Assembly: GCF_000003605.2 (NCBI RefSeq)
Contig: NW_003132854.1
Span: 51,097 to 91,116 of the forward strand
Direction: 5' to 3'
DNA length: 40,020 nucleotides
From: Saccoglossus kowalevskii
Taxonomy: Eukaryota; Hemichordata; Enteropneusta; Harrimaniidae
Below are positions 12,154 through 33,717 of this stretch, piece after piece. A model generated the notes under the pieces. That model worked only from the letters and a program-made list of their open reading frames with translations, made no database searches and was not told the DNA's origin. Numbering within the stretch: the stretch's first letter is position 1; each line of letters opens with the position of its first letter. The position numbers and the translations under genes are program-made.

Positions 12154-13194
12154 CTAATCCCATAGTTTTAAATGTGTATTACTTGGACCAGTGGCTGGTA
12201 TGCCACCACTACTACCAGGCATGTGATTTACGTTACTTGATGAATACTGTACATCACATGGATTGTTAGAAAAACCTGGATGTGTAGTACGAGGTGTATT
12301 TGCTAGGGCTTGAAAAGCTGCAAACTGGGACAAAGAAGGAGCAAACCTAGGAACATCTTCAATTGAAGTTTCAAGAAAGTCATCTATAAAACAATCATTT
12401 GTTGTAGATCCTTTCCCATTGTTCTGTATGCTTTTGATCCAGTCATTGGGTACAGTGACAGGAGCTGTAACTCCCATATCAAGTCTAAGACTACTATTCA
12501 TAGTTACTTCTCCTTGATAATGAGGAGGAGATGATGATGATGATGAGGGAGCAAATGGATGAGAAATCCTTGGTGCTGTAATGATATGATTGTCATCCTC
12601 ATAATCATAACAGTTGATGGTAGAATTTTTTGACACCATTATATTATCCATCACTGGGATATTTGGATGAGAAGCTGGGTTGGAGTGATATGAAGAAGGT
12701 GATGTGCTTGGATAATTTGCAGGTGAAGACATTGAAGAGTTGTCAGATGAGAATGCTGCAGGCGAGTCTTCTCCAAACTGTTGTAAGACTCTTGGTGGAG
12801 ACTGTTGTTGAGAGGAAGGGAAATTTTGCATTCCTGCTTTAGACTGACCACTGTTCTGTTTGATACTATTACCAAATCGGAATCCATTTTTTGTCCGGGA
12901 CATCTTTTTCTTTGTTGGTTTGTTAGCATCATTCTTGAGATAATTTCCCTGTTGACATGACTGGACTACAGCACCATTAGCAACCAGTGATAACAGCTCT
13001 GGAGGACTCTCAACATGTACTATATTATACTCATCGAGTAACTTAATTATGTCATGATGGAATCTTTCTTCTGCAATGTCCCGAGGTGATCGGTCCATGT
13101 GGTCGGTGATATCCCGATTTCCATAGTAGTCCAAAAGTATCTTAGCTGCTTCATGACTTCCTTCTCTTGAAGCCAAAAATAATGGAGTCTCTTC
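12154..13194 (-). other. Notch last exon: final ankyrin repeats and short C-terminal tail
   Basis: The exon starts with the EETPLF ankyrin motif and continues for 346 codons to TAG at 12156-12154. After the ankyrins (to about residue 974) it has a basic patch ([11 protein letters not shown]), a likely nuclear localisation signal, then a low-complexity tail rich in Ser, Pro, Asn and Gln. A run of six Ser follows FAP. I see no WSSSSP motif and no obvious C-terminal PEST block of the vertebrate type; the protein ends HLKLWD. The tail is about 290 residues, far shorter than in long Notch proteins. Confidence 0.93.
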
Positions 13195-16100
13195 CTGAAA
13201 TTCAGATAAAAATAAATAAACTTTAATGATTTTGTATACTAGCACCAACAGTTCTGTTTAGTTATTAGACTACCAAACACAATCATTCAGTGTTCAATTG
13301 GAATCACTGTCATAAATAACATAAGGTACTGTTGTGTTGGAAATAGCAATGTAATTTGAAGGAGGACTTTCACTGGGCATGCTGTCGACACTGGAAATCT
13401 CAGAAGGTACATTGCTGCTCATATGTGAGTGAGAATGCCCAAGTTTGGAACGTACCCATTGACTAATTCTCAAAACTCTTTGTTGAACACCATTTTTTTG
13501 TAATGTTTTGTTTTCCAACATAATCAAAACACTTTGAGTTTCTTCGGGCCTCATTGTTATTATCGGCAGCGAGAGTCGCATGGAATAGCTTTTAAAGAAC
13601 TAGGCAACATAGAAACACTCGCATAAATTGAATGTAAGTACAGGTTTTGTATATTGTTTTTATGGAAAAAACTTAAAAACCATAATTGAGAATCAATATT
13701 TTACGTTTTGTTCTAAATGAATTATATTTATTTACACTGCCCAGCTGTCCATTACAATTGTAAAAGTAGTGCTGGTCACACAGTGAATATAAAATAACAC
13801 CAATCACATGATGTATATTTTTTATTTGGAACATCGCAGCAACTCGTGATATTTTCACTTCTATAGCAATAGAAATCAGTGGGATAACACACTCGAATGG
13901 ATAATAATAACAATATGTTACCTTATCATCTTGTGCATCCTTTGAAGCTCCATGTTTTAATAAAACAGATGTAGCTTCTCCATTGTTAACAGCTGCTGCC
14001 CAATGCAAGGCAGTTTTACCTGCAGGAAACAAGCATTTGGTATAAAAGCGCCCTCTAGTGGTGTTACTGTAAAAGGGGTAATTATTCACTGGGTTTTAAT
14101 TTAGCTTATTTCGCTGACTGGAAAAATGCGCTAAATTAAAACACAGTGAATTTGTCAAATTTAGCATAGAACACCACATCTAAATGACGAAACCGTGAAT
14201 TTAAAACCCACTGAATATGCCTGAAATGGTAAATCAGTGAAATTTAAACCCAGTGAAAATTAGTCATTTTACAGTATATTATACATGTACTACAGTAAAA
14301 TTTCATCAATAAACTCATAACAGATATAATTTACCGTGTCTTGTAACCTTTTATAAGAGAATGGTAATACATTTGACTGTTAGAAGCAAGTCTCCAGTAG
14401 TATGCATTTAGATATTTTTTTTTGCTGTACTGGAATCGCACCAACTGAATACTGCCACATCCATAATGTGGGATTCACTCCAATTGCTGGTGATTCCCCA
14501 TTTCGTGATTTTCTCACATTTTTATTACCAATGCCAAAAATTATCTATACTGAAATTGACGTCATGGAATTTCTCAACAATGCGATACATAACTCACTGG
14601 AATAATCCCAAAGTATCAAAACACACTTTGAGAAAAATGTTTTGCAACATGGCCAACAATAATAAATACACATATTTTTAATACAATAATTTAAAAATAA
14701 AAAAAAACTACCACAAACTTTTATCAGGTACTAAGATTGGCTATAAACTAAAGTCTTCAATGATTTGAGAAAATATTTCTCTCATTTTCTAAAACTGAAC
14801 TGATATAAACTTTCAAGCCTCAGATGTTATTACTTGCATTGCATACTCACCGCCATTATCAGCTGCATTCAGATCTGCACCAGCATTGACAAGACCTTCA
14901 ACCATATTCTCTACAGCCAACCTAGCAGCCAGTATCATGGCTGTTGTACCATCATATGTCTTACTGTCAATATTTGTTGAATTATGCCTCAACAAAATCT
15001 AAAACAAAAAACATTAGTTAGTCACATACACGTTGCTCAAAGAGTTAGATAAATAATATATTTTGTATTATTATGATATGCCTTAATTTATAAGCTTTTT
15101 ATTGCCATATTTGTTATGCTGTCAACATCATTATACGAAAAAAAAATACTTGTCGTGATTACCTCACACACACACACACACACACACCATGATTGATGTG
15201 ATAATGCATTAAGACATACAACTGTCATTTTGCCCCAAAACAAGCAGCCTGTCAGCTGAGATAGCTCCGCTGTTAGCAATTCACATTTCAATTAAGAACT
15301 GAAGATATCATTAGAAAATGAACAATATGTATAGTATCAAAGCAGAGTCGTCAGCCGAGTTAAAAATGCAAGTAAAAATATTGATGCGTCCTGATTTTTT
15401 GTCAAGGAGATTTACCAGCAACATATCATTTTGTTTGGCATTATGAATGTTTTGTTTTGTATTTTCTGTAATACTAATTTTATACATGGGGAACTAGACA
15501 TGTGGTTAGGCTGTTGAATAAAATTCAGTTACATCCACCATGGCACTGTTATTTATATAAATAAATCCAGATATTAAAGTGTGTACCTGAAATACTCCCA
15601 TAGCATCTGCAGCAACTGCAGCATGTAATGGAGTTCTGCCTGTTAGATCTTTTGCATTAGCATCAGCACCTGACATGAGTAAAGTCTTTGCTGCATCTGA
15701 TCTGGAGTATCTGGCTGCTAAGTGTAATGACGTCTCACCTGACAAAAGTAAACCACTCTTAGTATTACATATCATAAAATTTCATATTAGTAGATACAAC
15801 AGTGTATAAAGTATACAAATTCAGTGGTGTGAATTCCATAGAAAAATGAATTATTTTTCATATGACCAACTGCATGAAAGTTCATTTTATAGCTGACAGA
15901 AATCTTGTTTTTCTGCAATCTTGCAAGCCCCATCTCTAGAAAGCAAAAGAGTACCTGTTTTCTTTGTGTTACTAGAAGTAGTTGCTCCTTGTGCTAGCAA
16001 ATCAACTATAATTGCAGCTGATCTTTCTTCCATGTCTTCATCACAACCATGTGCAGAAGCCAACATCAATGGCGTTAAACCACCTGCCAGACAGAATAGA

Positions 16101-19100
16101 TAGCAAATATCAAAACAATTTTCTCACAAATAAAGATGTAACAAGACATGTATTTTAGTGTTCCCAATTTATTCCATTGCATGTGTATCGGTAATTGCCC
16201 CTGCCCCTGATTTAAAAAGGTGGCAATAAATAAAGATGAACTGAATCCATAACATCGGCAAATTATTTCTATAGTTACTGCACTAGATGGCCAAAAACAA
16301 ATTGATGAGCTGCCCAGTCATTACATGTACATTTGTGTAAATAAGTCAAAAAGTTATTGTATACAATAAGCTGTCACCTGTTAGATTTCAAGTTCAACAT
16401 CAACTAACCTGGACCTTGTGCATTCACTTCAAACTGTACCCCATCAGCATCATCCACATCATTTGGTGGTGTCATTGCTAATAGTGGAGGTACTTTGACT
16501 TCAGCTGCATCATAGTGTGATTTAGACCAATATTGCTTATCAGTTTCATCATCTATCATTATCATCTGATCTCTGTCATCCTGAGAACTTGCACTCGGGC
16601 TTGGCTCTTGGAACTATGAATGAATATGAATGTATAATGAAACCTGTCTAAATTGAATACCTAAGGGACTGCGAAAGTTGTCCAGTTTACAAATCCTGAG
16701 GTGTATAGTTTATAGATGTTTCTAGTAACTGAACATCAAAAGGATTGAGAAAAATGTTCATCTTACAGAGTTGTTTATAGATGTATCTATAATGAAACCT
16801 GTCTAGACTGTTCATTTGGCTGCGGCGTCCTGTTTTTGAAAGCTTTTTACATAGGAGTTGGTTTGGACAGGTTTTACTGTACAAGTCAAGCAAGTTGTTT
16901 CATGTAATAAATTTTTACTATTATATTGACATGAAAGGTGAATACATCTCATAAGCAATTTGGTCACTGATCTGGGAAGAATAATGGAACCATAACACGT
17001 AAATGGGAACGGTAACCAAAGCTTGTAGTAATGCAGCAATTCACTGAATTGTGCACCAGTATTATAAGGAGTTAAAACTGAATTCAAATTTCTATTAGCA
17101 AGCATGTTTTGCTGAGTATATGTGAAAGAAATTCTGCAGGGCAAGTGATGTACTGGTACCTATGATGACAGGTTCTGGTATTCAAAATAACTTATTTCAA
17201 TACTTGCAAATTACAGTGTAAAAAGATTTTCAATCAACACTCATCTAAAGTATCTTACCTTTATTCTCTTTTTGGATGGTTCAATATCTGTTTCAGAGTC
17301 AGGAGAATGACTTTTACCACTCAATGTAGAAGGTGACTTCCCATGACTTTCATAGTCACATGATTCAACACTTGCTACGCCATTGGGTGTTCCTTCAATA
17401 CTTCTGTGTATATAAATATAGTCATGTCACATTAATGCAGATTCAATGCTCAGTTGAACTGTCAGGTGATATGCTATGTGTGTTTTTTGACTACCATATT
17501 TGCTTTATTAGTAGCAATGGACTTAAAAAAAATACCCTAAATTACTGACAGAGGTGTTTCCAAAATACTTCTCTCGCTAATAGCCAAATTTCATATAGCA
17601 GTTTTATTTGTGATCAAGTTTTCAGGATCTTGGGGTGTCATCAAGTCTCCAAATTGCACATTGGGTTCGATGATAAAAAATATTCTATATTAAAAAAATC
17701 AATATTCAATGTGAAGCAGAGTAATCTGGTATGAGTTGCTCCTGTACAGGATTTGAACAGCAAAATTATGCATAACAGGATTTATTGCAGTAAAGACAAT
17801 GAAATAACGATAATGATTAACATGCACAATGCATCAGGTTTTAATCAGTATAACTCATGAATGTCATAACTTTCAGATTTTATTTTGGCCAAGTTACTCA
17901 AAATTAAAAGGGCTTTCATCTAAGTTTTGCCGACAGTATTAATATTTTTGTATGTATGTGATGAAACTTATCATAGAATATTCAAACGTAGTCTTGCAAA
18001 TTGAACATTCTATTTAACTCTCAAGAGATTGTTACATCAAAGAAAAGACTGAAGTTCCTTTCCAATGTAGGTATAGATTTATTTAATATTTTATATATTT
18101 ATTTATTGTTATTTTTGTGTATTTATGTTAATTTGTTTTACTTGTCATTTTCTAGTTACGCATCGTAACTTTGTCGCCTCAGGTCTATATCTAAATCAGA
18201 TTTAAACTTACCTCAAGTTAACAGACTCCTTGCCTGAGGTTTCTTTCCTTTTGCCGCCTTGACTTGTATGGGGCACAAAGTTATCAGGAAACCATAGAGT
18301 TCCTTTAGCTTTGCGCCTTCTATTAGCAGATATGAGAACTCCAACTAATGGAAATGCTATGATGACAAGCAGTACTGCCATAATCCAGAGAAGACTACTA
18401 GGAGAGTTTTCAGTTGTTGTAGTGTCTGCTTCAGCTAAAATTAATTGATTCTATTAGATTTTGTTTACTGAGAGTGGCCAGGTAAGCATCAATAAATAAT
18501 AATAAGTATGTATGATAATTAGCTAATTTTCGGCATTTCCATGATGTATTCCTGGGAGGAAAAGATGTATAATAATAAGGTTATTACGAGGATACCACAA
18601 AGTATGCACTCAGACAGTAAGCAGTCGCATCCACCTTTGCTGTGCATCAGTCGATACTGCTGCTGTACTGTCTTCTTGCATACTTTGCAGTATCCTCGTA
18701 ATAACCTCATATTATACAGTGACATCACATGTTTGAATGTACCATGTGCTTGACCAACACAACATTGATATTTATGGCAAGACAATTTATTCTTAACAAC
18801 ATGTACATGACTTACTTTCTATATTTTGTAGTGGTAATACTTCCAGGTCAATGGTACTTTTAGATGATCTAGCACCTAGTAGAGAAGCTGCTTCATCTGC
18901 AGTTTGAAGGCAACTACCACCAGACTGATAACATTTCCTGTTATCCATCTTTAAGTATACTTTGGAGCTGAAATGAAAATATATTCCAAAATTAAGAAAA
19001 TGTATTGTTATTTTAGTTTACACATCTATGGGGTTGCATTATCTGTGAGACTGTCATTATTTCAACCTGTTGTCAAAATTATGTGTACTGTATTTGGCAG

Positions 19101-22100
19101 TCTTGTAGATTGCTTCCCTTTTTTGGCAATAAATACAGGTTTGACTGTATTTAATTTTTAAGTACTATTGAAGTAGCTCTCAAATTATTTCCATTTAATC
19201 AGATAAAATTTCAATCTGTCTGAGCCAAATTATGAAAAATATCTACCAGTGGAGAAACTATAATTGGGAAAAGTAACACCAACCAACATACACAATGGAA
19301 TAATAAATTTGAATGGAAAAAAAGTTCTGGTATAAGCCCAACATGAAGATACTTTTACAGTAGAATACTTTATTTTTTGCTGAAGGGTTGAACCAGCAAA
19401 AAAACAATCCTGTGACAATAAATTTTACTACATTTTGTTATAATCATTGACAAATTACTAATTTAAAATGTATTTGCTTTATTATAAGAACAACTCGAAT
19501 AGAATCCATATCAACAGTTGCATGTACTGCACACTGGATCATTAAAAATATGACTCATTTTGACTATACACTTCTTATCATTTATGTAAGCATATGTGCT
19601 ACTAATCAAGTAATAATTAGTTTTTTAAAGTTATAGTTTTTCACTGAAATAAATTCTAGTTAAAAAATATATTCAATCCCATAATATTTAGTTTGACATA
19701 TGCACATATTTACATCAGCAACCAGGTATTTAAACTAAGAAAAAAGACGCAAAATGCTTGTACAAAACAACTCTCTGTTAATTGGATTGGTACAGCCACC
19801 TACCCTGTTAATGTTTCTTGTGTGACTGTGTCATTATAAGCACTTCGTTTACTTAGTTCACTTGAATCTATGACATCATCTTCATCCTCTTCAGTCCATG
19901 CAATAATCTTATCATTTCCATTCTCGTCTTGAACAAAGACTACAATAGTATGCAAAATTTGACCAACTTCACGTAGAAACATCTTGGAATTATTACGAAT
20001 TGCTTCTGGTTCTAGTAGTATGGTCATAACAAGTGTGCCTTCAGCATAATTTGGTGGGTATTCATCACAATCCAAACCATCCCAACTGCATGGGGCATTG
20101 TTACATCCATTATCACACAATCCATCAGCATAATAATTACTGCAGTAATTATCATATCTTAAATCAAAACAAAATTATCAATTGATTAAGAATCCATCTA
20201 CTAAAAATTAAAGTGAGGTAGTCGCCACCTGCACGTTGGTCAGATGGCCATAGCAGGTTATTGTTTTAATACAAACAAGCGTCTACCCATGAGCCTTTGC
20301 ATGTGTTTTCATCATCGATTGGGCCTCAATTCCCACATGTGTGCAGGTGACTACCCTCTCACTTTAAATTAAAGGTTATTCAATAGAAATTATTCAATTA
20401 ACAGAGCCTGAGAGTTCCTTGTATTTCATTTTTGTCAACAAACCTTCAGGTTTCACCTATATGACTATGATTGATTTCAGTCTGGCGCAACTTTCAAAGA
20501 TTTCTGTAATCAAACTCACTTGCACTCTCCAACAGGTTCATCACAGTCAAAACCATCATGTATACAAGTATTAATATTACATTCTTCATCACATTTCCCA
20601 TCTTGAAATACATCCCAGCAATTCACACTGTCCACTGTACAGTTTTCCCATGGTAATGTGCCTAGTGAACAGTCTCTGCCATCCCAATAACAATTGTATG
20701 TGTTACATTTTGCCTACAGAGTAAACAGATATAAATCTTATGTAACCTTCCCAGTGAACAGTCTCTGCCATTCCAGTAACAATTGTAGCTATCACTGTCA
20801 TATTTCCCATCATTATTAAAAATTGAATATTGTATTGTTGCTCTACTAGGATACATAATTATGTAAAAACATTGTTGACCAGTAAGTATTAAAACATCAT
20901 AGTATTTGCTTTAATAAATAAACAATTTTATAAACATATGCAACAACAGTTTTCCTCTAGTTAAATACCTTAAACAAACAATATACAAAAGGTAACATTT
21001 TCTTTTTTAGTACTATTATTGTAATTTTCTCTTTATTGTAGTATTTTTCTAAGCATACATTACCCACAGATGATAATTGTTGAGTAATAAAGTTATTATA
21101 TTAAATCAAACCAAACTGAAGAATAATTCTGTACTTCTAATAGAGATTCACATCAAAGAAAGAAACTCCATACAGCATAATGACTTGTATGACAGACATA
21201 AGATTTTCTATCCATCTGAGATGTAGCGAATCAAGAAATTCCTAATCATCTGAAAAACTTTATCAAACCATGGACTTTGAAGTTGCTAACAAAACTAGAA
21301 TGTATTTTATATCAAATTACTTTGGGAAATTAGGATAGGATAGGATAGGATATTTTATTTGGAATGTACACAAAAACAATGCTTGAGTAAAGTCCAACGT
21401 AAGAAACATACAGTATCACAACTAATCTAAAATAATTTTAAAATCTGAAAAACAAAATTAGCTAAAATACTACAAACATATTTGTCTATACTAGAGAAAA
21501 CATTAATAAACAATTCTCCATTTGGTAATGTTTGATAGTCAGGTGAGTATTTGAACAATGTATAGAGGAATTTTTTTCTGTGTTCAGAAAAACTGTCACA
21601 ATGAAAAAAGTAATGTTTTTCATCACCCACATCCTTAGAGTCACATTTGTTACATACCCTGTCAATTTTATTTATTCCCCTGTGACGACCTATTTCAATT
21701 GGCAAGAAGTGGGCTGAAATACGAAATTTGGTTAATGCTACTCTGTGTTTTTTGTTTTTTATATCATCCAAGTATTTTTCAAATTTATAATTATTTTTGA
21801 ATGTTTTATAAGTACTTAGTTTATTATGACCAGTTTTGTTCAACTGACTTTCCACATTTGTTGAGTAAATTTGGTTTAACCTTTCTTTAAACAGATTGCA
21901 AAAATTATGTTCAAATTTTTTTTATTGTGACCCACAACCACTTGGCAAAACAAAAACATGTGTCATTGCTTCATGGCTAGCTACTGTATCTGTTGCGTGC
22001 GATGGACATTATCGTAGTAATACACCGTACAAAATTACTTAAAACACAATAAAATGACAAAACCAGTTTTTTCATGTTTCAATGATATTGAAGGTTGTTA

Positions 22101-25100
22101 AATCCTTGTATACTTACGTCACATACACCATCACCATAAACGAGTGCACACTCTGGTATTTCACAGTTGCGTTGATCAGCAGCCAGTGGTGCAGCCGCGA
22201 CATCCTCTCCAATTCCACCTGGAAAGTTGATATCAAATATATCGCAGTGCAGGCCATTGTAATAGATGGGGCAATCACACAGATACATTTCTACATCATC
22301 TAAGCAGAAACCGCCGTTGACACACGGGGATGATGAACATTCATCGCGCTGGTCATATTCGCATTCGGTGCCATTGTATCCCGAGACGCAACTACAGATG
22401 TAACCAGTTTCAGTTGGCTGGCAAAGACCAGAATTCAGGCACGGATTTGGCAGACAGTTGCTTTCTGGAATCTCACACTCATTACCAATGTAACCCTGAA
22501 CAAAAATAGAATACATGTTATTTTTTAAAGCTGCATTTCTCAGTGTTTCTTCATGAATTGGTAACATTCTGAAATTTTCGGGTTCCATATCCACTGAAGT
22601 ATTTGTATTGTTTTGAAAAATGTGAAACCCACAGAGGTGGCGGCAGCTTTTTTTGACTGTGGGGGAGATGGTTTTATGTGAATGTTCAAAAAACGAGCCA
22701 AAGGCGCAACCTTTGTGGGGAGTCCGGGGGCATGGACCCCCAGGAAAATTTTTAAAAATATAGACCATCTGAAACGCTGTTTCCTGCATTTTGGGGAGCA
22801 AATTTTGAATCTGATCTAAAAAAACAAAATGGCTATCAAAATAATCAAGGACTCTTATAGCAGATTTCAGTTGAAAATAGAGGAATGGTCGCTTTCCATT
22901 ATTAATTTCATGCAAAATAGTCTATAGGACTGTTTACAGTTTACATATCTCAGAATAATCCTTGTAGCCTGGCTTTATCCTAAATTAAGTCACATAAAAA
23001 ATGTTTGTCATTGTTATATACAAAAGACATTTGGTAACACAAATGAAGCACATATTTTATAAGGTGAGAAAGTATGCCAGGCATACATGTGAACTCTCCC
23101 ATGTACAAAATAAATATGTCACATACACCAACATATACTGTAGTTGAAATTTTTAGACAAGCAGACATAAGACAACAGGTGGTTGTATAATTTATACTTC
23201 CCCAGGGCCCCCTCAGTAACGGGATAATTATAAATCACCTTACTTTATGTTGAAATACAATGCAGATTTACTAGTCTTAGAGAATTATAATGGTAATTAA
23301 GATCATACCACAGTCAAGGGAATACTGAGTCATGGTCAATTACAATAGCAAACATTTTTCTTCAAATTATACTGTGTTCCATCGCAATTTGTTTTAAACA
23401 CAGATTATTGTATTGTAAGTACTGTATCCTCTTGTGTTCGTGAAGTATGTTTAATCTTATTTTACTTGCATCTATCAGCCATTAAGATGAAAATTAAAAA
23501 AACTTTGCTAAAGGCAAACTGATTCTAATTCTAATTTTCTTTTTCTTTTTAACTCCATTCTGATTTGTAACAATAGATGTTTTACTGGTGCCAAAGCAAT
23601 GAATAATACAAATTCAGAAGTGGACAAAAATAGCTAAATTTTATGGGTAAAAACTGAAAATTTACCAACATTTTGTTCATTTAAGAATATAAGAAAAAAG
23701 TGCAGACAAATTTGGGTGAGAAAATCTGGTGGTGAAACGGTTAATTTAGCTCAATGTCAGAAGGACTAGTCTCAACCCAGAGTTCCATGTAGGTATAATC
23801 CTGAGTCCCTGTGTCTCGTCTAATGGGTCCAATTTTAGGTGAATAAGGCATGAAAAAGTGTGAATGTCAGTTTAATTAAAACTTCTGCAACGCATGACCA
23901 GGTTATCCCACTGATAAGTAATATTCACAAAATTCACAATATTCAGCAAAAACCTTCTTAAGATTTACATTACATTCATTATCATCTCTATCTCAACTAC
24001 TGTAAAATATTTTATTTTCACTGAAATACATTTCGCATGAAGTTCATTCCCACTGATTTTTAATGAGTTGAATATAAAATAAATGAAAAAAAATTTTTAC
24101 TGGAATTTATTTTTAATGATTCACCTTGTCAGAGAAAATAGCAAAAATAAATTCCAAGTTAAAATAAGTTACTTTACAGTACCAGTAGAACACATAACTT
24201 AAACATTATATTCATGGATTGGTGACTTACCAAAAGGCAATCACAGCTGTATGACAGGTTTAAATAAGTACAATTACCATTATTTTGGCATGGATTTGGA
24301 TCACAAATATCAACTTCACAATTTGTACCTGTATAAATCAAAATAAATTAAACATATTTAGAGGTGAGTAATGCATATAACCAGAAATTATTTTAGCAGG
24401 GTTGGAAAAGACAAAAAAAACAATAATTTAGTGTCTCTGACATGGAAATTATACACTATGAAATATACTTGAAATCTGCAACCAAATATGTATGGTTATC
24501 ATATCAAGTTTGATGACTGAACGTCATTTAAGGAAAACAGTTCTAAACCGATTCAGTTTTTTGTCAACAAGTAATTACATTACATAGTTTCTGTAAGTTC
24601 TCAAGTTATAGTAAAATTCACCTTCTACTTGTGATTAGAAGAACACATTGGATTATGGGAAAATAAATGTTTATTAACACAATGGTCCAATTAAGTTTAA
24701 TGAGAATGCACAATTGCTTGATTTTGATGAATTTTTAACATTAAAATGGCTGCCATTCAGCCATATTGAATTGTAATGTCAAATAAATATATACATATAT
24801 GCATACGTGCAATATGATGTACATGTATATGTAAAGTTAGAACATGATTGGTCAGGACATTGCGGAGATGCATCTCCTGAGCTGCATTTCTTAAAACAAA
24901 ATGGTCATTAGAATTTCAATTAAATTTAAGAGTTATTTATTAATATTGATTGCACACCTGATATCAAGAGTATTGATAGACGTACCTAGGAATCCAGTTA
25001 AACATGTACAGGTGTAGGTAGTGGCATCTATTTCTTCACATACCCCATTATTTAGGCATGGCATTACATCACATGGTGAACTGGCTACCGTGGTAACAAC

Positions 25101-26015
25101 TGTGGTGGTGGTGGTTACTGTGGTGATCACCTGATTATCATCAATCTCACAGTAGGTTCCAGAATAACCAAGCTGGCAGAAACAAAATACATCTGGAATC
25201 AGTAAGCAGTTAGCACCATTCAGACAGGGATTATATGGATCTAAACAAATGAAATTATCTTGACAGTCACTTCCAAAGACTGCATAGCTGCAATTGCAGT
25301 AGTAGTCAACACCATCATCCACACAAACACCTTGGTTTAAATCACCAAAACAAAGTGCAGAGACAGCACCTGAAAGATAAAATGTTGACGAATAAAAAAA
25401 TCAGTAATCGGATTTTTTTTAATCTACTATGAATAATTGCATGGTTATAAATGACATTATTATACATCTGTCATCGTAACGCCATAAGTAACAACGTGCC
25501 CTAATTTTGCAGTATTTTACTGGGTATATTCATCCTACCATATTAGGAAATGCAAATTCCAAATTTGGAGCGATTGCATGCATGAGCATCCTCTAATAAT
25601 AAAAACAAACATGGCAGCCCCAGGGTTTGACCGGACTCCACACAAAGAAGTTTGCTAAATCTGTCCTAAACATTTGGGATTTCGTCATTCCCATGGTGTA
25701 TCCTTGGAAGGAAAAGATGTATAATAATAAGCTTATTACGAGGATACCACAAAGTGTGCACTCAGACAGTATGTACATGTAGTCGCATCAACCTCCGTCT
25801 GTCAATACTCCCACTGTACTGTCTTTGTGCATACTTTTCGGTATCCTCGTAATAATCTCATATTATATGATTCGTAATCTGAAATTATAGATATAACATG
25901 CAGTTTGAATATAGAAATGCAACTTACGCCCTTCATCCATTGCTTTTTGTTCACATGTGATAGCATCCGTGTAACTGATTAGTACTACTGCTACAAGCAG
26001 GAGCTGAACAAACAT
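12154..26015 (-). CDS. Notch: Complete short Notch receptor with only six EGF repeats (15 coding exons, 1262 aa)
   Basis: A single-pass receptor whose cleaved intracellular part would act with CSL in the nucleus. Coding exons, 5' to 3': 26015-25928, 25369-24986, 24328-24231, 22495-22118, 20713-20520, 20157-19804, 18967-18816, 18434-18212, 17403-17259, 16613-16409, 16083-15955, 15738-15587, 14998-14851, 14019-13922, 13194-12154. They sum to 3789 nt (1262 codons plus TAG), with every junction in phase. Domains: signal peptide about 1-18; six EGFs at 21-65, 71-103, 129-161, 166-197, 204-235 and 243-274; three LNRs at about 301-331, 341-373 and 380-411; NOD/NODP about 414-548; TM about 564-586; RAM with LWFPDNF at about 596-602; basic KKRIK at about 668-672; ankyrin repeats about 741-974; Ser/Pro/Asn-rich tail 975-1262. 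In the exon of the ATG, an in-frame TGA lies five codons upstream, which supports the start. Canonical Notch has about 30-36 EGFs. Everything from the LNRs to the ankyrins is well conserved; the reduction is in the EGF array and the tail. Confidence 0.96.
13294..13599 (-). other. Possible alternative 3'-terminal exon of Notch, or small nested gene
   Basis: Within the last Notch intron (13195-13921) an acceptor-like TTGCCTAG ends at 13600. It is followed by an open frame of 101 codons to a stop at 13294. The frame is phase 0, so it can join the preceding ankyrin exon (14019-13922, phase 0) directly. The product would lose the last ankyrin repeats and gain a Ser/Pro-rich tail ending VIYDSDSN. 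An internal ATG at 13581 would give a 95-residue stand-alone protein. I recognise no domain. The tail has ordinary-looking composition and no transposon motif. Confidence 0.35.
14065..14275. mobile_element. TACTGTAAAA MITE in Notch intron
   Basis: The left end TACTGTAAAAGGGGTAATTA with TTCACTGGGTTTTAA is inverted at the right end (TTTAAACCCAGTGAAAATTAG...TTTTACAGTA). Additional inner copies of AATTTAAAACCCACTGAAT give nested inverted repeats. About 210 bp, non-coding, between two ankyrin exons. Confidence 0.7.
15165..15188. repeat. (CA)12 microsatellite
   Basis: About twelve uninterrupted CA units in the Notch intron between ankyrin exons 15738-15587 and 14998-14851. Confidence 0.95.
18212..18434 (-). 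other. Notch transmembrane helix and RAM exon
   Basis: One exon encodes a Thr/Ser-rich juxtamembrane stretch and a hydrophobic helix of about 23 residues ([20 protein letters not shown]). The helix ends in Gly-Val-Leu-Ile-Ser, which aligns with the gamma-secretase (S3) site of Notch. A stop-transfer NRRRKAK follows, then LWFPDNF, the RAM motif that binds the beta-trefoil of CSL. A basic cluster (GGKRKE) and ESVNLR, matching the family DSVGLK, close the exon. This indicates retained proteolytic release and CSL binding. Confidence 0.94.
18527..18706. mobile_element. GGTTATTACGAGGATAC MITE, copy 2
   Basis: Core at 18579-18706 with the same terminal inverted repeats as the copies at 5805 and 25731. 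Only about 50 bp of the left arm is present (from about 18527), so this copy is 5' truncated. It lies in the Notch intron between the NODP and TM exons. Confidence 0.8.
18816..20713 (-). other. Notch negative regulatory region: LNRs, NOD and NODP
   Basis: Exons 20713-20520, 20157-19804 and 18967-18816, together with the end of the preceding exon, encode three LNR modules followed by NOD and NODP. Each LNR keeps six Cys and the calcium-binding DGxDC end (WDGRDC, HDGFDC, WDGLDC). The segment between LNR1 and LNR2 has the family PWxNC signature. NOD contains the conserved [19 protein letters not shown] contains [10 protein letters not shown] and a second Cys (SCLQ) for the usual disulphide. The expected furin (S1) loop is short and acidic with only a Lys-Arg pair (SELSKRSAY), not a full RxRR. 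This block is what normally holds the receptor inactive until the S2 site is exposed. Confidence 0.93.
20212..20363. mobile_element. TTAA-flanked MITE with GGTAGTCGCC ends
   Basis: Flanked by TTAA (20208-20211 and 20364-20367). Ends are AGTGAGGTAGTCGCCACCTGCAC and, inverted, GTGCAGGTGACTACCCTCTCACT, an imperfect terminal repeat of about 23 bp. The GGTAGTCG core is shared with family A, suggesting relatives moved by the same TTAA-specific transposase. It lies in the Notch intron between the LNR2 and LNR3/NOD exons. Confidence 0.8.
20741..20818 (-). pseudogene. Decayed duplicate LNR exon segment
   Basis: About 28 bp upstream of the true LNR exon (20713), the minus strand encodes [23 protein letters not shown]. 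The second half is nearly identical in DNA to the LNR1 exon (ACAATTGTTAYTGG...GGCAGAGACTGTTCACT), while DGKYD matches DGKCD of LNR2. Two LNR Cys are replaced by Tyr and Ser, and there is no suitable acceptor and only a weak GTTACA donor. It is best read as a relic of a tandem exon duplication. Confidence 0.65.
21328..21925 (-). mobile_element. 5'-truncated LINE (non-LTR retrotransposon) 3' end
   Basis: An open frame (about 21920 to 21427) reads like the C-terminal end of a LINE reverse-transcriptase polyprotein. It has FKERLNQIY, the segment [20 protein letters not shown], and the Cys/His cluster C-NK-C ... HYFFHC typical of the post-RT zinc-finger-like region. The 3' end carries a short pentamer tail (TATCC repeats, plus 21331-21351), as several LINE clades do. 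No RT catalytic core is present, so this is a dead fragment inside a Notch intron. Confidence 0.75.
22620..22920. repeat. Dispersed repeat fragment with GGGGGCATGGACCCCC core
   Basis: Contains GTCCGGGGGCATGGACCCCCAGGAAAATTTT and a downstream ATTTTGGGGAGCAAATTTTGAA. From memory, similar G-rich-core segments are common dispersed repeats in several marine invertebrates. It is not coding; the minus-strand frame that runs from it into the Notch EGF exon crosses the splice acceptor at 22496. Confidence 0.45.
24000..24182. mobile_element. TACTGTAAAA MITE-like element in Notch intron
   Basis: TACTGTAAAATATTTTATTTTCACTG at the left is matched in inverted form at the right by AAGTTAAAATAAGTTACTTTACAGTA. 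Same terminal motif as the element at 14065. It ends about 50 bp before exon 24231-24328. Confidence 0.6.
24618..24692. repeat. Fragment of TTAA MITE family A
   Basis: CTTGTGATTAGAAGAACACATTGGATTATGGGAAAATAAATGTTTATTAACACAA aligns with the interior of the full copy at about 26678-26740. The termini are missing. It lies in the Notch intron between exons 25369-24986 and 24328-24231. Confidence 0.65.
25505..25857. mobile_element. GGTTATTACGAGGATAC MITE, copy 3
   Basis: Core at 25731-25857 plus the long left arm (CTGGGTATATTCATCCTACC..., TTTGACCGGACTCCACACAAAG) matching copy 1. It sits in Notch intron 1, between the signal-peptide exon and the first full EGF exon. The open frame on the minus strand across it is a by-product of the shared element sequence. 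Confidence 0.8.
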
Positions 26016-26069
26016 CTTTATTCTTCTATATCATCAGATAATACATACAATTATAATGTCAAACAATCA
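25928..26069 (-). other. Notch first coding exon: signal peptide and start codon
   Basis: The start codon is at 26015-26013. It opens [18 protein letters not shown], a clear signal peptide with likely cleavage after Ala18, followed by ITCEQ, the first Cys of EGF1. The donor is a perfect GTAAGT (intron begins 25927). Upstream on the minus strand a long pyrimidine run ending in CAATAG gives a strong acceptor, so the exon probably begins at 26069 with 54 nt of 5' UTR and is preceded by a noncoding exon. An in-frame TGA between the acceptor and the ATG rules out coding sequence continuing further 5' in this exon. Confidence 0.85.
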
Positions 26070-26485
26070 CTATTGAAAAAAAAAATATCTTTCAATATTT
26101 GACTATAATTTTAAATCATTTCCCCATTAAACCTTATTATTAAAAATGATGGGGCTATTTTTTCATCTGTATGATCAAAGTTATTTGTGGAACAAATATA
26201 CAAGTAATTAGGGTAATACTCTATATACCTATCTGAATGCCAAATATTAATACGCCAAAATGTTTTAAATTATTTCTATAAATTTTGTAAAATTTTGGAC
26301 CAACTTTCTTATTTCTAACTTTTTGAAAACAAAAATGGAAGCATTTATGCAGATTTCACATTAAGTGGAAGGTGACAAAAGTAGATAATGCTGTGAGGTA
26401 AGTTTTGATGTTGGTGGATGGAACAAACAAACAAACAAACATTTCCTATTGGCCAAATTTACTCCAGCATAATTGACATGTTTAA

Positions 26486-26773
26486 AAGGCGGTAGTCATC
26501 GTGCCATGCATGTGTGCAAAGATGGCAACTTTAACTGTTGTGCAGATCAACGAGTACAAACTGAGAAGTAACAAAGCTTTAATTAGATATTTGAAATTTT
26601 CTTGTGTGTTTTCCATTAGGTATTAAAGGAGTCATCGGCGGTAATTATGGCAAGTCGTGCCAAGGTCAAACCTCATACTTGTGATTTCCATTAGAAGAAT
26701 GCATTGCATTGTGGGAAAATCAATGTTTATCAACACAAATGTTGCACATGCGCAGCGCGACGACTACCGCTTT
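26486..26773. mobile_element. TTAA-flanked MITE, family A copy 2 (full length)
   Basis: Flanked by TTAA (26482-26485 and 26774-26777). Terminal inverted repeats are AAGGCGGTAGTCATCG and CGCGACGACTACCGCTTT. The interior also has subterminal CATGCATGTGTGCAA and TTGCACATGCGCAGC in inverted orientation. 288 bp, no coding capacity; the best-preserved member in the window. Confidence 0.85.
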
Positions 26774-26944
26774 TTAAGTTGGAAACCTACTCATAGATGC
26801 AAATACCCAGAATTTATCATTTTGCAATAAATTATACTCTTGGGCAATATTATTGACTTTAAAAAATTTGGGGATCACCAGCCTAATTTATGAGAAAGAT
26901 GAAGGTTGTATTTAGTAGATTGTCAGTATTATACCAGTATTGCT

Positions 26945-27668
26945 TTTTACATAGGTTTCTATGGGAGAGATATTATGTCATATCTCAAATTTTAGTTTTT
27001 ACATAGGTTTCTATGAGAGAGATATTATGTCATATCTCAAATTTTAGTTTTTACATAGGTTTCTATGGGAGAGATATTATGTCATATCTCAAATTTTAGT
27101 TTTTACATAGGTTTCTATGAGAGAGATATTATGTCATATCTCAAATTTTAGTTTTTACATAGGTTTCTATGAGAGAGATATGTCATATCTCAAATTTTAG
27201 TTTTTACATAGGTTTCTATGGGAGAGATATTATGTCATATCTCAAATTTTAGTTTTACATAGGTTTCTATGAGAGAGATATTATGTCATATCTCAAATTT
27301 TAGTTTTTACATAGGTTTCTATGAGAGAGATTATTATGTCATATCTCAAATTTTAGTTTTTACATAGGTTTCTATGAGAGAGATATTATGTCATATCTCA
27401 AATTTTAGTTTTTACATAGGTTTCTATGGGAGAGATATTATGTCATATCTCAAATTTTAGTTTTTACATAGGTTTCTATGAGAGAGATATTATGTCATAT
27501 CTCAAATTTTAGTTTTTACATAGGTTTCTATGAGAGAGATATTATGTCATATCTCAAATTTTAGTTTTTACATAGGTTTCTATGAGAGAGATATTATGTC
27601 ATATCTCAAATTTTAGTTTTTACATAGGTTTCTATGAGAGAGATATTATGTCATATCTCAAATTTTAG
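26945..27668. repeat. 52-bp satellite array, 14 copies
   Basis: Fourteen head-to-tail units of about 52 bp (TTTTTACATAGGTTTCTATG, then AGAGAGATATTATGTCATATCTC, then AAATTTTAG). Copies are nearly identical; differences are GGGAG against GAGAG after CTATG, one 3-bp deletion, one lost T and one added T. Each unit has a palindrome GAGATAT...ATATCTC and another, CATAGgtttCTATG. The array sits 0.9-1.7 kb upstream of the Notch start codon. Confidence 0.95.
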
Positions 27669-28467
27669 ACTGGTGATGAGGTACTTCAATTTTGTTGATG
27701 AATTATTTGAAAAATCTGGGTTTTAAGAAGTATCAAAAAATGTAATTTTTCTTTAACACACGTGTGTTCCATGAAAATGTTCTAAAAATAGCGATTCTTG
27801 AAAAATATTAGGACAAGTTTATTCTCAAAATACGTCACTATAAGAATCAAAAGAATTCTTACTATTTCATGCCATGAGACAATAACATTTTTTTAAATAA
27901 ATCAATGAACATTGTCATGCGATTTATAAGCAACTTTCTCAAAAACTAAGAGTAGGCTTCTACCTTTAGGTAGTTAGCATGAATGGAAGACTGATGTACA
28001 TAAAAATCATCCTGAAACACAATTCCATTTCTCACATGTGCCTTTGATTTTTCCTGAAAACTATGTTTTTGATTACAGCAGTTTAGGAACCTAAATCCAG
28101 TACACACAGATCATAGGGCATGTTTGTAATTGTAAAGATTTCTCTGCATGAGGTATCGTGCACTTCAGAATAACATGGTTTCAAATATCACGTCACTGAA
28201 TATAACTTACAACTAGAATACAACTAGAAACCATTTACTTCTGTGTTTTGAAATCAACTTCATATGGCTTTAATAATTAGAGCACATATATCTGGTAGTG
28301 GATGTAAAACATATGCATAGCAAATGTAATCTTGTTTAGGGATGAAGGTAGGGGTGGGTGGCGAAGATGTTTTCAATTACTGTGAGCAAAATTTTTACAG
28401 TGTTGTTTAAAGTTTGTTACATGTATTCCACCCTTGCAAACTTTTGTTTAAAGGGAGGAATTATTAA

Positions 28468-28585
28468 AGGTGGTGGTCGCCGCGCAGTGCATCTTCGAAT
28501 TTCATGACAACAAACAATGTATTTCACATGCTTTGTGTACGTTGAGTCCATATCGAACAGGATGCGGTGCGACGACCACCGCTCT
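28468..28585. mobile_element. TTAA-flanked MITE, short family A relative
   Basis: Flanked by TTAA (28464-28467 and 28586-28589). Ends are AGGTGGTGGTCGCCGCGCAG and GTGCGACGACCACCGCTCT. 118 bp; it shares the family A termini but not the interior, as an internally deleted or independently derived element would. Confidence 0.8.
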
Positions 28586-29799
28586 TTAATGAAGAGATTA
28601 CACTTGTTGTTTAATTTCTATAAACTGGTTCAGTTTCATGAGAACCAAGATTTTTACGGCTCAGTGAAAATCAAGAAATTTTATAGCAGGAAAAATGTCT
28701 CTGGGGTCAAATGTCTGTGGACAGAGAAACAGTGACTTTCATCACATTTTTTCTTCACAAATTCCATAAAATCATGAATCCGTGACAATCCATAGCAGTG
28801 GAAATCAGGTGTATACAGTATTTATGGTCCCTTAATAAAATATTAATGTATCAAACATTGTGAAGTGATTGTGGTATGTGCTTGATAATATTAGTTTTTA
28901 AATTACACTGAAGTTGATAAAATTTGTATTAATTAATTGGTATGGATGGTGGATAAATGTTCACTCTATACATCATGGGCATATAGTGATAAATTCATGT
29001 GTAAATGAAAAAATATCCAATGTTACCATTTATATAACATATTCCAAGTTACCTAATTTGTACATGTATAGAAACGAGCAACCTGACAGTCGAAATAGCC
29101 CCGCTACAAGAACATATTTGCCAAAAATAGAGAATTGATGATATAGGCATGAAATGAACAAATCTGATAGAGGTCCATCCAAGGTGCTATATCAAAGCAA
29201 TAGAATTGGTACTTCTCAAGCAGTTGAAAATAGCATTTTTTACCAAAACAATTTGACAAAAATTGAAGATATTGTCACAAAATAAACAAATCTGACAAAG
29301 GTCCACCCAAGGTTTCTACATACCAAGTATCAAAGTAGTTTTCAAGAAGAAAATGCAATTGTTGACGAAGAGAACGGACAATCACCTATATGAACAGCTC
29401 CAGATTGTCATCTATCATGACAGTAGAACTAAAAAGTGGTTTACTTGAAACTCAAATACTTGATGGAGCTTAGTCCTGACCAAAGTGATCAAATGCTGGC
29501 ATGCTTATATAGCTTAGAGAGTCGCATATTTTCAAGTACCTTTGATCCAAGTATCAATTGATTACTACATGTACATACCCTAATTATCAAAACATACACA
29601 TTTAAGCAAACATACTAGGTATCTTTGGTTTTAGGATACATATATAATGCTGTAGTTTTGAAACATTTGTCACCAAATTTGCCACAGTCCAGTGGTAAGC
29701 AGTTGGCCACTTTTATCCTACACAAAGTGTTAGAGACCCCGGAATAATAACCTGCATTAAAAATAAAAATGTAGAAAAGTGTAGCTGAATAGTACTTAC

Positions 29800-29866
29800 C
29801 AGTTCAGTAGGAAAAATTCAACACAACAAGCCAACACCACCAAGACTGGTTTCAACTGACTAAAGA
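29800..29866 (-). other. Possible noncoding 5' exon of Notch
   Basis: The minus strand shows a strong donor (CTG|GTAAGT, intron starting at 29799) after a non-coding stretch. The Notch start-codon exon begins with a strong acceptor at 26070, so an upstream noncoding exon is expected. This is one candidate; its 5' limit is a guess and no promoter motif was identified. Confidence 0.2.
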
Positions 29867-30659
29867 ATAAAATATCAATAACCTACTCTTTGTGCATGAT
29901 GTGTGTGTGTTTATTTTAATGGTTAAATAACGCTTGTCTTAACAGTCTGTCATGCATGAGAAACTTTTGTTAATGTGTCTCAACTGTCACAAGCAGTTAA
30001 AATCTAAAGTTACATGCAGGTATATGTGTAAAGAATTACAGTGGCACTGGTAAATTATAATTTAACAAACATTAGAAAAGCTATTATTTTGTTAATCTCA
30101 ACAAATGTAGAACATATTTAAAGTTTTTGTATCAGTAAAAAAAAATTCTATACAGAAGTGTGAATCTGATAACTTGATGAGTTGCCATAACTACTATTGA
30201 TAGAATGAGCAATGTTTGTGGCTTTCCAACAACAAGGTTACACTGGACTATTCAGTCAGTTCATTGAATAACTGAAATCAATGCCTTGCAAGCACCAGTA
30301 AACACGCTCAACTTTCACCATTGGAGAACTGTTCTATTTTGATGAAAAGTGGCACACCCCCTCTATGTTTAATATTCACCAATGTTGAGATATTCCAAAT
30401 TAATGTAATAGGAATGGCCACTTAGGCTTACAGGAGGTTTAACTGTCAGTTTTATAAACTGATAGTACAGTTATACTACTTTTTGGCTTGTCTATTGTTC
30501 TGAAAATCCGCAAACTTTGATAGCTGACATTTTTCATTCAGCATTCTTCGTAAGAATTTACAAGAAAAGTACTCTTCTGGTGTTCCAGACAGTCATAGTT
30601 TCTTCGTTCTCAACAATGCCCATTTACTCAGAAAAAACAAAGAGTTCAACGTTCATCTT

Positions 30660-30673
30660 TGGGGGGGGGGGGG
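30660..30673. repeat. Poly-G tract
   Basis: A run of about 13-14 G in AT-rich DNA. Confidence 0.95.
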
Positions 30674-32172
30674 CAGCAACACCTTGGATTGGTACAACAA
30701 TTTTCAGATTGACTAGCTGCGTGGCTGCATTCTACTGAATAAACTAAGCATCTATGGTTGAATGAAACATGTATTTGACTAATGATATTTATATATAACC
30801 TCACGATATGTCACAGAATTTTGAGAGTTCTACCTATATTATAATCTGAGCCGTAGTTGAGGATTTATGCTAATCTGTGGTAATCACGAGTGTATACTTA
30901 CGTCATCCTAAAAGAAAATATCGCGAGATTATACATTTATCACATACCATTTCCTCAGCACAACAGAATGAAACTGTGGATTGTTGCCAAAATATTACTG
31001 AATACAAATATATTATTGAACACACCTCGTATGCTAATTTTGTTCATGCCAGAGTGTTTTATTTCAGGCAAAAACCTTGTGCACACTGTGTAGCAATTCA
31101 GCTCATTCATAATACTTGCTCTAATTGACTAGCATTTATTCAACTGATTTTTTTGAGGGACTGAATATAAACTATGGTCTTGGGTCTCAGACAATCTCGA
31201 CCAGAACCTCAACCCTAAACAAGGTGTTTAACCAGTTAGTTTCCACGTAGCAGGCTTACCCATAACTATTCGACTGAAAAACCATGTAAGAGGACTTTGT
31301 TCCATGTTGGTGATAATGACAAAACAATATAATACTGTACACAATTCATTTTATTAAGATATAATATTGCATCATTCACTGAGGAAGTGATATATTACAA
31401 AAAGTGTCAAATACTGATCAGACATACAAAACAAAAGTTTCGTCACCCAATTTTTAAGTATGAATATCTTTTTTGACAAAAAAAAAAAAATAAGAATGGT
31501 ATGTTCTTGTGACCAATATTAAATTAAACACATTTATAGTGATATATTTTACCTGAATTCTAAATGTAACTGACAGTACGCAGCACTATAGACGTCGAAG
31601 TTCCAACTTCACATATTATTTGCATATTATGTTGTATAAAGTTTGCATTTCATTTATTATTGGTCACTTTGAATACATAGTGTGTTACTAGGTGTATAGG
31701 GGTTTTCAGAATTAATGGGAAGTCATTGTACATTTGGCATTGGTTGGTGGATAGAAAAGAATTTTTTAGGAAACGATTTTGATGTCTAAAAACATAATTT
31801 ACATTACCATACTTGCTCTATTAGGAGCACATCTACATGATTTTTTTAAATAATGGAGCGAGCATATTTAGGAATAGTATTTCACCAACTGTAATTGATT
31901 GATTGAATGAAATACAACGAATTTCAATATGCAAATTACAACATGTTAAGTTGAATTCCACTGACAAAGCAAAGAAAATAAACTGAAAAATACAATTTAC
32001 AAAATAATTAAAAATTTCGTCAACTTTAGGGGACTATAAGATGAAGTTCTCTTTAAACTAATTGAACTATATACACTGCAAGACACAGAGAAAAAGGCTA
32101 ATGAGTTCACACACAAACTGAACTACAGGTCAATGGATATTAAAAACTGAGCATCTCCTCATTTTACATTAA

Positions 32173-32186
32173 CCCCCCCCCCCCCC
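32173..32186. repeat. Poly-C tract
   Basis: A run of 14 C flanked by AT-rich sequence, probably within the 3' flank of the minus-strand MORC-like gene. Confidence 0.95.
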
Positions 32187-33717
32187 AATTAAAAACAACA
32201 CAGTGCTATTTTGGCAAATCAACTATGCCCATGCCTTAAACTATAAAGACTGTTTGCTATGTGCATATTTTAATTATTCATAGCCCTTGAAGAGAACATG
32301 CATAAAACAAATGTTCAAAGAAGAAATAACAAATCTAAACATGGCTAAAAAAAAGCGGTATTTTAAACATGTACATTTCCCACATGGCAATGGGTATTTT
32401 CAAGATATGAGCGAGATCTTGCATATCATGTGAAATGCGCAATTTTATTTTGAACTTGAATTTTCTGTTTTTATAGTTTTGTCTTTCGGAAAGGCAATAT
32501 ATTTAAAGTTAAGAACCCTTACTTCATCAAAATTGACCATCATACTTTTGCAACAAAGAATACCAAAAAAGCAGTAACCTGACAATTCAAGATATTTTAA
32601 AAACAAGGTAGAGTTGCGGTTCTTTCATAAAACATGCACTTCTATACAACACTGACCATTTTCTTTAAAGGATCGTCATTTTTACATGTATAAGACATGA
32701 TTAGAACAGTTCTGAAGGAATATTAGGTTTGCCTTGGGGTTAAAGTATTTGCACAGTACGAACCTGAAAGTTTGGGTTGAGTTTCGTGGCAATGGCAAAA
32801 TTTTAGGTTGTTTAGATAAATAACAGTTTGTGATTGGCAATTTGTCAGGATAACTCACAAAATAGGAATTTAGTTCATGACCTGATTACTGTTTATGTTA
32901 AAGCCTTTAAAAAAATATTTTGTGAATATTAAGTATATTAAGTGACATAACTTCCATCACCCACTATTCAAAATAAAGGGCTTGTTGATTGGAAGATGTT
33001 TAACTATCTATCAATAATAATTTAAATTTGCAAAGATGACGCTGTATCATTTCCGGATTGGTCAATCAGCTTCATGCCTTTCACTGTAAATGTTGCAAGA
33101 AAATGTTGTATGTTATTACAATTGCCATTCTACTTCCAAAATAGGACAAATTTTCTAAAAAGACTGCTTTAAAAATATAGCAGCTATATGGATGCCACTT
33201 TATATCTAAAGCAGCTATAAAAAGCTAAAAAGACAAATGTGTCATAAATCTTTTTACACTTTCCATAACAATAAGTCAATCTAATTTCACAAGGAATGAA
33301 TATTCAATTTTTTGCGAGTAAAAGCTACAAAAACCCAGTAAGTCACAGCTACTTTCACAGAAATGTGTTCTTATAAACGCTCTCAAGTGTGGAAAATGTA
33401 TAATGGTAAAAACATTCTAGGCCTTACCTACCTTGAAGAGAAGCTAGAAATTGCTTTTCTGAAATTATACTGTTAATAGGGTTGCAATGATAATAGATGG
33501 TGTTTTTATATCTTGATTTGTGAGTGAGATATTGACGTTTTGTGTACTGCCTACATTTTTGTATCTATATAAAAAACAACCGTACAAAAAAAGTGGTAAT
33601 ATACCACACACGATTGCTGGAATTGGATAAAAATGCTGTATAAATGTTCATTTTATAACTTTTATATATTACACAGGTGTATAAGCTGAGCACAAATCTA
33701 TATGTATTCTAATGATG

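Follow-up and report, generated by a model that had tools for sequence, protein, structure and literature searches.

The window analyzed here, a 40,020-nucleotide stretch of contig NW_003132854.1 (C2446 below) of the Saccoglossus kowalevskii assembly, carries on its minus strand (26015-12154) a gene of the Notch family, here called short Notch. We consider it reasonably likely that short Notch is a second and complete receptor gene of this family, with a new trigger, standing beside a canonical long Notch ectodomain in a Saccoglossus-type hemichordate. The parts of this proposal that could be read directly from the DNA are the anatomy of the gene, the homology of its negative regulatory region (NRR) and ankyrin (ANK) domain, a long EGF array, two DSL loci, a CSL beta-trefoil, and a Fringe exon. 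Rebuilding the gene from the minus strand gave the same result as a preliminary description of the window, namely, a frame of 15 exons that stays open from signal peptide to stop and yields 1262 residues. All 14 introns are of the GT-AG type and have compatible phases (exon 10 starting at 16613, after 'ttcatag'), the 1262 codons lead to a TAG stop that ends at 12154, and the 3789 coding bases (stop codon counted) contain neither a stop nor a frameshift; since the gene has introns, it is not a retrocopy. An in-frame stop immediately upstream of the ATG, also reported earlier, was seen again. The product consists, in this order, of a signal peptide, six EGF repeats, three LNRs, NOD, NODP, a transmembrane helix with Gly-Val, a basic stretch, the WFP motif, ankyrin repeats, and a Ser/Pro-rich tail with PPHY.

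Pfam recognized EGF (5 stretches), LNR (3), NOD (415-469), NODP (498-552), and ankyrin repeats in this protein. The LNR-HD region (HD, heterodimerization domain) aligned over its full length to Notch1 NRR structures (7abv, 4e-62; 3eto, 5e-60) and aligned to Notch2 and Notch3 as well, while the ANK domain matched those of fly Notch (1ot8, 7e-97) and human Notch1 (2f8x, 7e-96). Because matches of this strength exclude chance similarity, the NRR and ANK domain are, by alignment, homologues of those of canonical Notch. In the ANK domain, short Notch shares 158/231 residues with the fly and 153/234 with the human protein, close to the fly-human level (170/236), and the nuclear part is therefore only slightly more diverged than that of a normal Notch. 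The Gly-Val of the transmembrane helix (PLVGVLIS) and the juxtamembrane WFP of the RAM region (TLWFPDNF) were read from the protein itself; the sole PDB alignment of the transmembrane/RAM stretch was a weak one of the RAM part to Notch1 (6py8, 15.8 bits). Pfam, the PDB alignments, and the reading by eye thus agree with the earlier claim that the LNRs, NOD/NODP, Gly-Val, WFP, and ankyrin repeats are all conserved.

A long EGF array was found on another contig (C2501:375686-382217), where the exon pieces, joined in order, give 22 readable EGFs. A query with EGF11-13 of fly Notch (175 matches, with 150 of 1347 candidates scored) led to a run of EGF exons on C2501, one of which covers fly EGF11-12 in a 63-residue match at 63% identity. 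It is not the ranking in this query, however, that identifies the array as Notch but the co-linear alignment of six of its EGFs (four exons joined) to Notch1 chain 5uk5, which we take to be rat Notch1 EGF8-12 (192 residues, 1e-76, 261.5 bits); the next distinct protein, DLL1, reached 114.8 bits in its best single alignment. On this evidence, we identify the array on C2501 as the ectodomain of a canonical long Notch.

The ectodomain of short Notch is of a different kind. Cysteine spacing gives six EGFs, as the preliminary description had counted, and Pfam gives five stretches; EGF1 is atypical, being recognized by its cysteine pattern alone, with 14 residues between its first two cysteines and the first of these encoded in exon 1. 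The O-fucose consensus (C2-X4-S/T-C3) is present in 0/6 of these EGFs versus 16/22 in the long array (Fisher p=0.0025), the O-glucose consensus in 1/6 versus 10/22, and a calcium-binding-type start ([DN]x[DN][EQD]C) in none versus 16; applied to fly EGF11-13 as a control, the glycan patterns returned two sites for O-fucose and two for O-glucose. In pairwise EGF scores, none of the six best matched EGF11 or EGF12 of the long array, with the proviso that scoring of single EGFs is weak (fly EGF11 found its long counterpart clearly, at 143 versus 89, while that of fly EGF12 was ranked second and that of fly EGF13 fell outside the top three). A review (PMC3415683) places ligand binding, in the excerpts available of it, in EGF12 and/or at the EGF11-12 junction and describes it as calcium dependent. 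Since short Notch has no O-fucose or strict calcium-binding consensus, since none of its EGFs best matches EGF11 or EGF12, and since binding is placed there by those excerpts, the canonical EGF11-12 ligand contact appears to be absent from it, in line with the earlier statement that equivalents of these modules are missing or unrecognizable. Nor does it show the canonical feature of about 29-36 EGFs with an EGF11-12 module. EGF count alone does not bar it from the family, because Notch proteins with 10 EGFs exist: the available sections of a survey give a range of 10 to 36, with as few as 10 in Caenorhabditis (Gazave et al. 2009, PMC2770060). EGF2 and EGF3 are separated by a Thr-rich segment that may be a mucin-like stalk.

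Other parts of the Notch pathway were found in the assembly. DSL domains lie at two loci: judged by eye and by nearness, the one on C722 is followed by an EGF run and a transmembrane helix and is Delta-like (part of the stretch being N), and the one on C1938 is followed by EGFs and a VWC-like stretch and is Jagged-like, although the VWC score (22.2 bits) is below the Pfam cut-off of 27.6. The DSL domain on C722 (92486-92611) ends in an unusual GGDSVEEYC; the usual end is a short G-x-x-C. A CSL beta-trefoil (BTD) is located on C214, and a Fringe exon (Manic Fringe match, 1e-7) is located on C4565; among six Fringe-family matches, this exon alone proved Fringe-like, and the frame on C1747 was judged by eye to be another glycosyltransferase. 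The O-FucT family had 37 matches, among which POFUT1 was not distinguishable. As far as seen, O-fucose tuning would thus be absent from the short receptor rather than from the animal, because the long array carries the O-fucose consensus and both the Fringe exon and O-FucT members are present.

We propose that the second Notch copy would have given up the canonical ligand-binding array while retaining its NRR lock and nuclear output. Short Notch would be expressed and would work as an NRR-gated receptor, in which an S2 cut followed by a gamma-secretase cut would send the Notch intracellular domain (NICD) to CSL. Its trigger would be another ligand, or a contact made by the six divergent EGFs, rather than the calcium-dependent, O-fucose/Fringe-tuned EGF11-12 contact with Delta/Jagged. 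Several points weigh against this proposal. In nematodes, DSL ligands are bound even by short EGF sets, and EGF6 of short Notch (DQRDEC) keeps part of a calcium-binding-like pattern, even though it failed the consensus. The NOD-NODP loop holds no furin motif (R-X-K/R-R), only LSKR; a furin-type S1 site is not needed in every Notch. Among the matches listed for the fly EGF11-13 query, a different EGF-rich locus scored highest (C3809, 103.5 bits, 52%), and identities of up to 68% were seen for single EGFs on C4659. The long gene is known here from its EGF array alone, C2501 being N from 384096 through 387499, where the examined stretch ends. On contigs that had yielded hits, 40 places were sampled, of which 18 consisted entirely of N and 1 did so in part. 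Finally, the lineage-specific duplications that are given as examples in the available part of PMC5356439 are those of Helobdella and Schmidtea, not Saccoglossus.

As to mechanism, the main alternative is that the paralogue is still a DSL receptor in the style of nematode LIN-12/GLP-1, with some of the six EGFs binding Delta/Jagged without O-fucose tuning. The two DSL loci in the assembly, the intact NRR (which implies a need for ligand pull), and the 10-EGF Notch of Caenorhabditis (PMC2770060, in the sections available) all speak for it; the six EGFs, in contrast, contain not one calcium-binding-type start or O-fucose site, none of them has long EGF11 or EGF12 as its top-scoring counterpart, and we regard this rival as unlikely, if worth keeping in mind. 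Less probable still would be a receptor that has no dedicated ligand and is activated by slow basal or endocytic routes, or a competitor for CSL and shared proteases. The reduced ectodomain, the S1 loop devoid of a furin motif, and an intact NICD that could occupy CSL would fit such a protein, but the LNR-HD lock, conserved over its full length, would be pointless in a constitutive receptor.

Whether short Notch stands beside a long gene or is part of it was addressed in the assembly as a whole (572 Mb, 4830 contigs). A family search for LNRs gave three places, two of which are the short Notch gene and the third of which is a single LNR on C3219, presumably GNPTAB-like; on that contig, a tblastn search with the short Notch protein returned nothing but LNR matches, although 38,286 bases of the 50 kb examined there are N. 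In the readable assembly, neither a NODP-to-ANK query taken from short Notch (72 matches) nor a fly ANK query (65 matches) revealed a locus of Notch level outside C2446, the best identities there being 42% and 41%, respectively. The earlier idea of looking for a second, long Notch with NRR and ANK residues thus bore fruit only by another route: those residues gave no second copy at Notch-level identity outside C2446, and the long EGF array came from the fly EGF11-13 query. At the loci found in our searches, the matches themselves lie in readable DNA, although L041 and L043 are N in part, and a Wnt search recovered Wnt exons on eight contigs, or about ten genes by grouping, from which the gene-level view of the assembly may be better than half. 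With 18 of the 40 sampled places wholly N, claims of absence are nevertheless weak. We ruled out short Notch as the sole Notch of the genome, given the long EGF array on C2501 and the fact that much of the assembly is N; because that array belongs to a canonical long Notch by alignment, the short gene is probably a paralogue beside it. The suggestion of a derived short paralogue, made in the preliminary description, therefore gains support as far as the ectodomain is concerned, the NRR/ANK half of the long gene reading N and being unseen.

On identity, the chief rival is a single Notch gene lying on two contigs, with the short model being its 3' part or an internal-promoter isoform, split off by misassembly. 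Readable LNR and Notch-type ANK exons were found in the window only (apart from the one LNR on C3219), exon 2 starts in phase 1, so that phase-1 EGF exons could splice into it, and C2446 beyond the window is mostly N where sampled. Short Notch does, however, have a first exon of its own, and since this exon carries both the signal peptide and the first cysteine of EGF1, it goes together with exon 2. The 14 kb upstream of exon 1 (26016-40020) contained no tblastn match to the short Notch protein at E up to 1, and a scan for the EGF pattern was also empty there, although the same pattern recovers whole only 3/6 of the gene's own EGFs, because introns split the others. This agrees with the earlier remark that the 7.6 kb preceding the ATG exon show no EGF exon; the absence holds for 26016-40020 alone, seven 10-kb stretches of C2446 outside the window being all N. 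In addition, the long array is internal to C2501, a contig of 1,079,018 bases that continues almost 700 kb beyond it, and S. kowalevskii is among the species excepted from a single Notch in the available text of PMC5356439. Taken with these points, a single split gene seems to us very improbable.

As for the literature, the same text of PMC5356439 reports that, apart from vertebrates, S. kowalevskii, Helobdella, and Schmidtea, every species examined has a single unambiguous Notch, and it leaves the S. kowalevskii complement unspecified. S. kowalevskii also belongs to the species set of PMC8166818, the result section of which, in the part available, gives no Notch count for it; neither "hemichordate" nor "Saccoglossus" occurs in the available text of PMC2770060. 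No description of a short hemichordate Notch was found in the titles or abstract openings listed for open-licence papers on Notch in hemichordates, sponges, and Trichoplax or on reduced or six EGF repeats, a silence that is weak evidence of novelty because only open-licence papers were covered. The earlier remark that no such short paralogue comes to mind among bilaterians accordingly has to be qualified, on the basis of the accessible parts of both sources, by the 10-EGF Notch of Caenorhabditis (PMC2770060) and by the naming of S. kowalevskii as an exception to a single Notch orthologue (PMC5356439).

The exons of short Notch, all on the minus strand, divide the protein as follows. Exon 1 (25928..26015) holds the ATG, the signal peptide (hydrophobic core LLLVAVVLI, by eye), and the first cysteine of EGF1, and exon 2 (24986..25369) holds the remainder of EGF1, EGF2, the Thr-rich stalk, and most of EGF3. 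EGF3 ends in exon 3 (24231..24328), which also encodes most of EGF4, and exon 4 (22118..22495) supplies the end of EGF4, EGF5, EGF6, a linker, and the start of LNR-A. The NRR continues with exon 5 (20520..20713; end of LNR-A and LNR-B), exon 6 (19804..20157; LNR-C and NOD, the first half of the heterodimerization domain), and exon 7 (18816..18967; NODP). The transmembrane helix with Gly-Val, the basic stretch, and the RAM WFP motif were located by eye in exon 8 (18212..18434), followed by a RAM-ANK linker with a basic KKRIK stretch in exon 9 (17259..17403) and the linker leading to ANK in exon 10 (16409..16613). ANK sequence fills exon 11 (15955..16083), exon 12 (15587..15738; 79% identical to fly Notch over 53 residues), exon 13 (14851..14998), and exon 14 (13922..14019), while exon 15 (12154..13194) encodes the final ANK repeats, the Ser/Pro-rich tail with PPHY, and the TAG stop.

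The 5' half of exon 5, which encodes the end of LNR-A, has a degenerate tandem duplicate within intron 4 (20743-20811, minus strand). We rejected this copy (20811-20743) as an alternative phase-0 exon, since in the required phase a TGA comes after the possible acceptor. Such a degenerate partial exon could be taken as a sign that the whole gene is a decayed or unexpressed copy, but with 3789 coding bases free of stops and frameshifts and an ANK domain 65-68% identical to those of human and fly, we find this hardly credible. The same intron holds a 163-amino-acid open frame (21433-21921, minus strand) that, judged by eye, looks like the C-terminal portion of a retroelement reverse transcriptase but gave no hit in Pfam (E up to 0.01). 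Introns 1 and 7 (about 25700-25870 and 18530-18720) carry similar short elements with roughly inverted ends, miniature-transposon-like by eye, which start near ATGAGRTTATTACGAGGATAC and end near GGTATCCTCGTAATAA. Ten open reading frames of the window outside the short Notch exons likewise lacked Pfam hits (E up to 0.01), and we therefore name no neighboring gene.

The mitochondrial contig of the assembly (C4830, 17,037 bases) was read as well. On it, most genes share one strand and cox1 lies on the other, nad2 precedes nad1, and tRNA-Lys has the anticodon UUU; AAA occupies a conserved Lys position of COX1, and AGA occupies a Ser position of cob, presumably a conserved site. A single AGG was seen in the 11/13 protein frames counted, upstream of the likely cox3 start. 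Of the ten ATA codons of COX1, nine aligned to the best PDB chain (7o37, which we take to be a mouse chain), opposite five Ile, two Val, one Leu, and one Met, which fits ATA being read as Ile. At its end (16243-17037), the contig carries a tandem array of similar units, each about 191 bases long, which showed up as recurring frames. For the S. kowalevskii mitochondrion, the available text of PMC3121625 gives an inverted COX1, a moved ND1 or ND2, AUA as Ile, AAA as Lys, AGG absent, AGA as Ser, and the Lys anticodon UUU, and ATA as Ile is a trait of echinoderms and hemichordates according to the part available of PMC2697986. From these mitochondrial traits, we take the animal to be S. kowalevskii or a close relative of it.

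Compared with canonical bilaterian Notch (Drosophila Notch and NOTCH1-4), short Notch has the same three LNRs, NOD, NODP, Gly-Val transmembrane helix, RAM WFP, and ANK in the same order, with an ANK domain 68% identical to that of the fly and 65% identical to that of human; it differs in having six EGFs instead of about 36, none with the O-fucose consensus or a strict calcium-binding start, and in the Thr-rich stalk between EGF2 and EGF3. The array on C2501 comes from the same animal and the same family of ectodomains, but its 22 readable EGFs include 16 with the O-fucose consensus and a recognizable Notch1-like EGF8-12. Human NOTCH2NL, a paralogue with about six Notch EGFs, lacks the NRR, transmembrane helix, and NICD, all of which short Notch keeps along with a reduced EGF array. 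Caenorhabditis LIN-12 and GLP-1 also carry an NRR and ANK, and both Caenorhabditis copies are short, whereas in Saccoglossus a long EGF array is present alongside the short gene. The short-ectodomain Notch proteins of Caenorhabditis are paralogues (PMC3415683), as short Notch probably is, although their EGF numbers run from 10 upward (PMC2770060), both as given in the excerpts available.

Going further, we tentatively raise the idea, which we regard as rather doubtful for now, that a deuterostome has split Notch in two, with a long canonical receptor and a short one in which the NRR mechanosensor and nuclear output were kept while the DSL-binding, calcium-stiffened, Fringe-tuned ectodomain was swapped for a new input. 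If this were true, the split-off short receptor would be a natural counterpart of synthetic Notch with a swapped sensor. Its six EGFs are fewer than the 10 to 36 reported in the sections available of the PMC2770060 survey, and a receptor with an NRR lock and NICD, devoid of O-fucose sites and of EGF11-12, would offer an evolved protein in which to ask how much of the Notch ectodomain is needed and whether other inputs can drive the NRR. Short Notch also bears on the duplication and repurposing of a developmental receptor outside the vertebrates.

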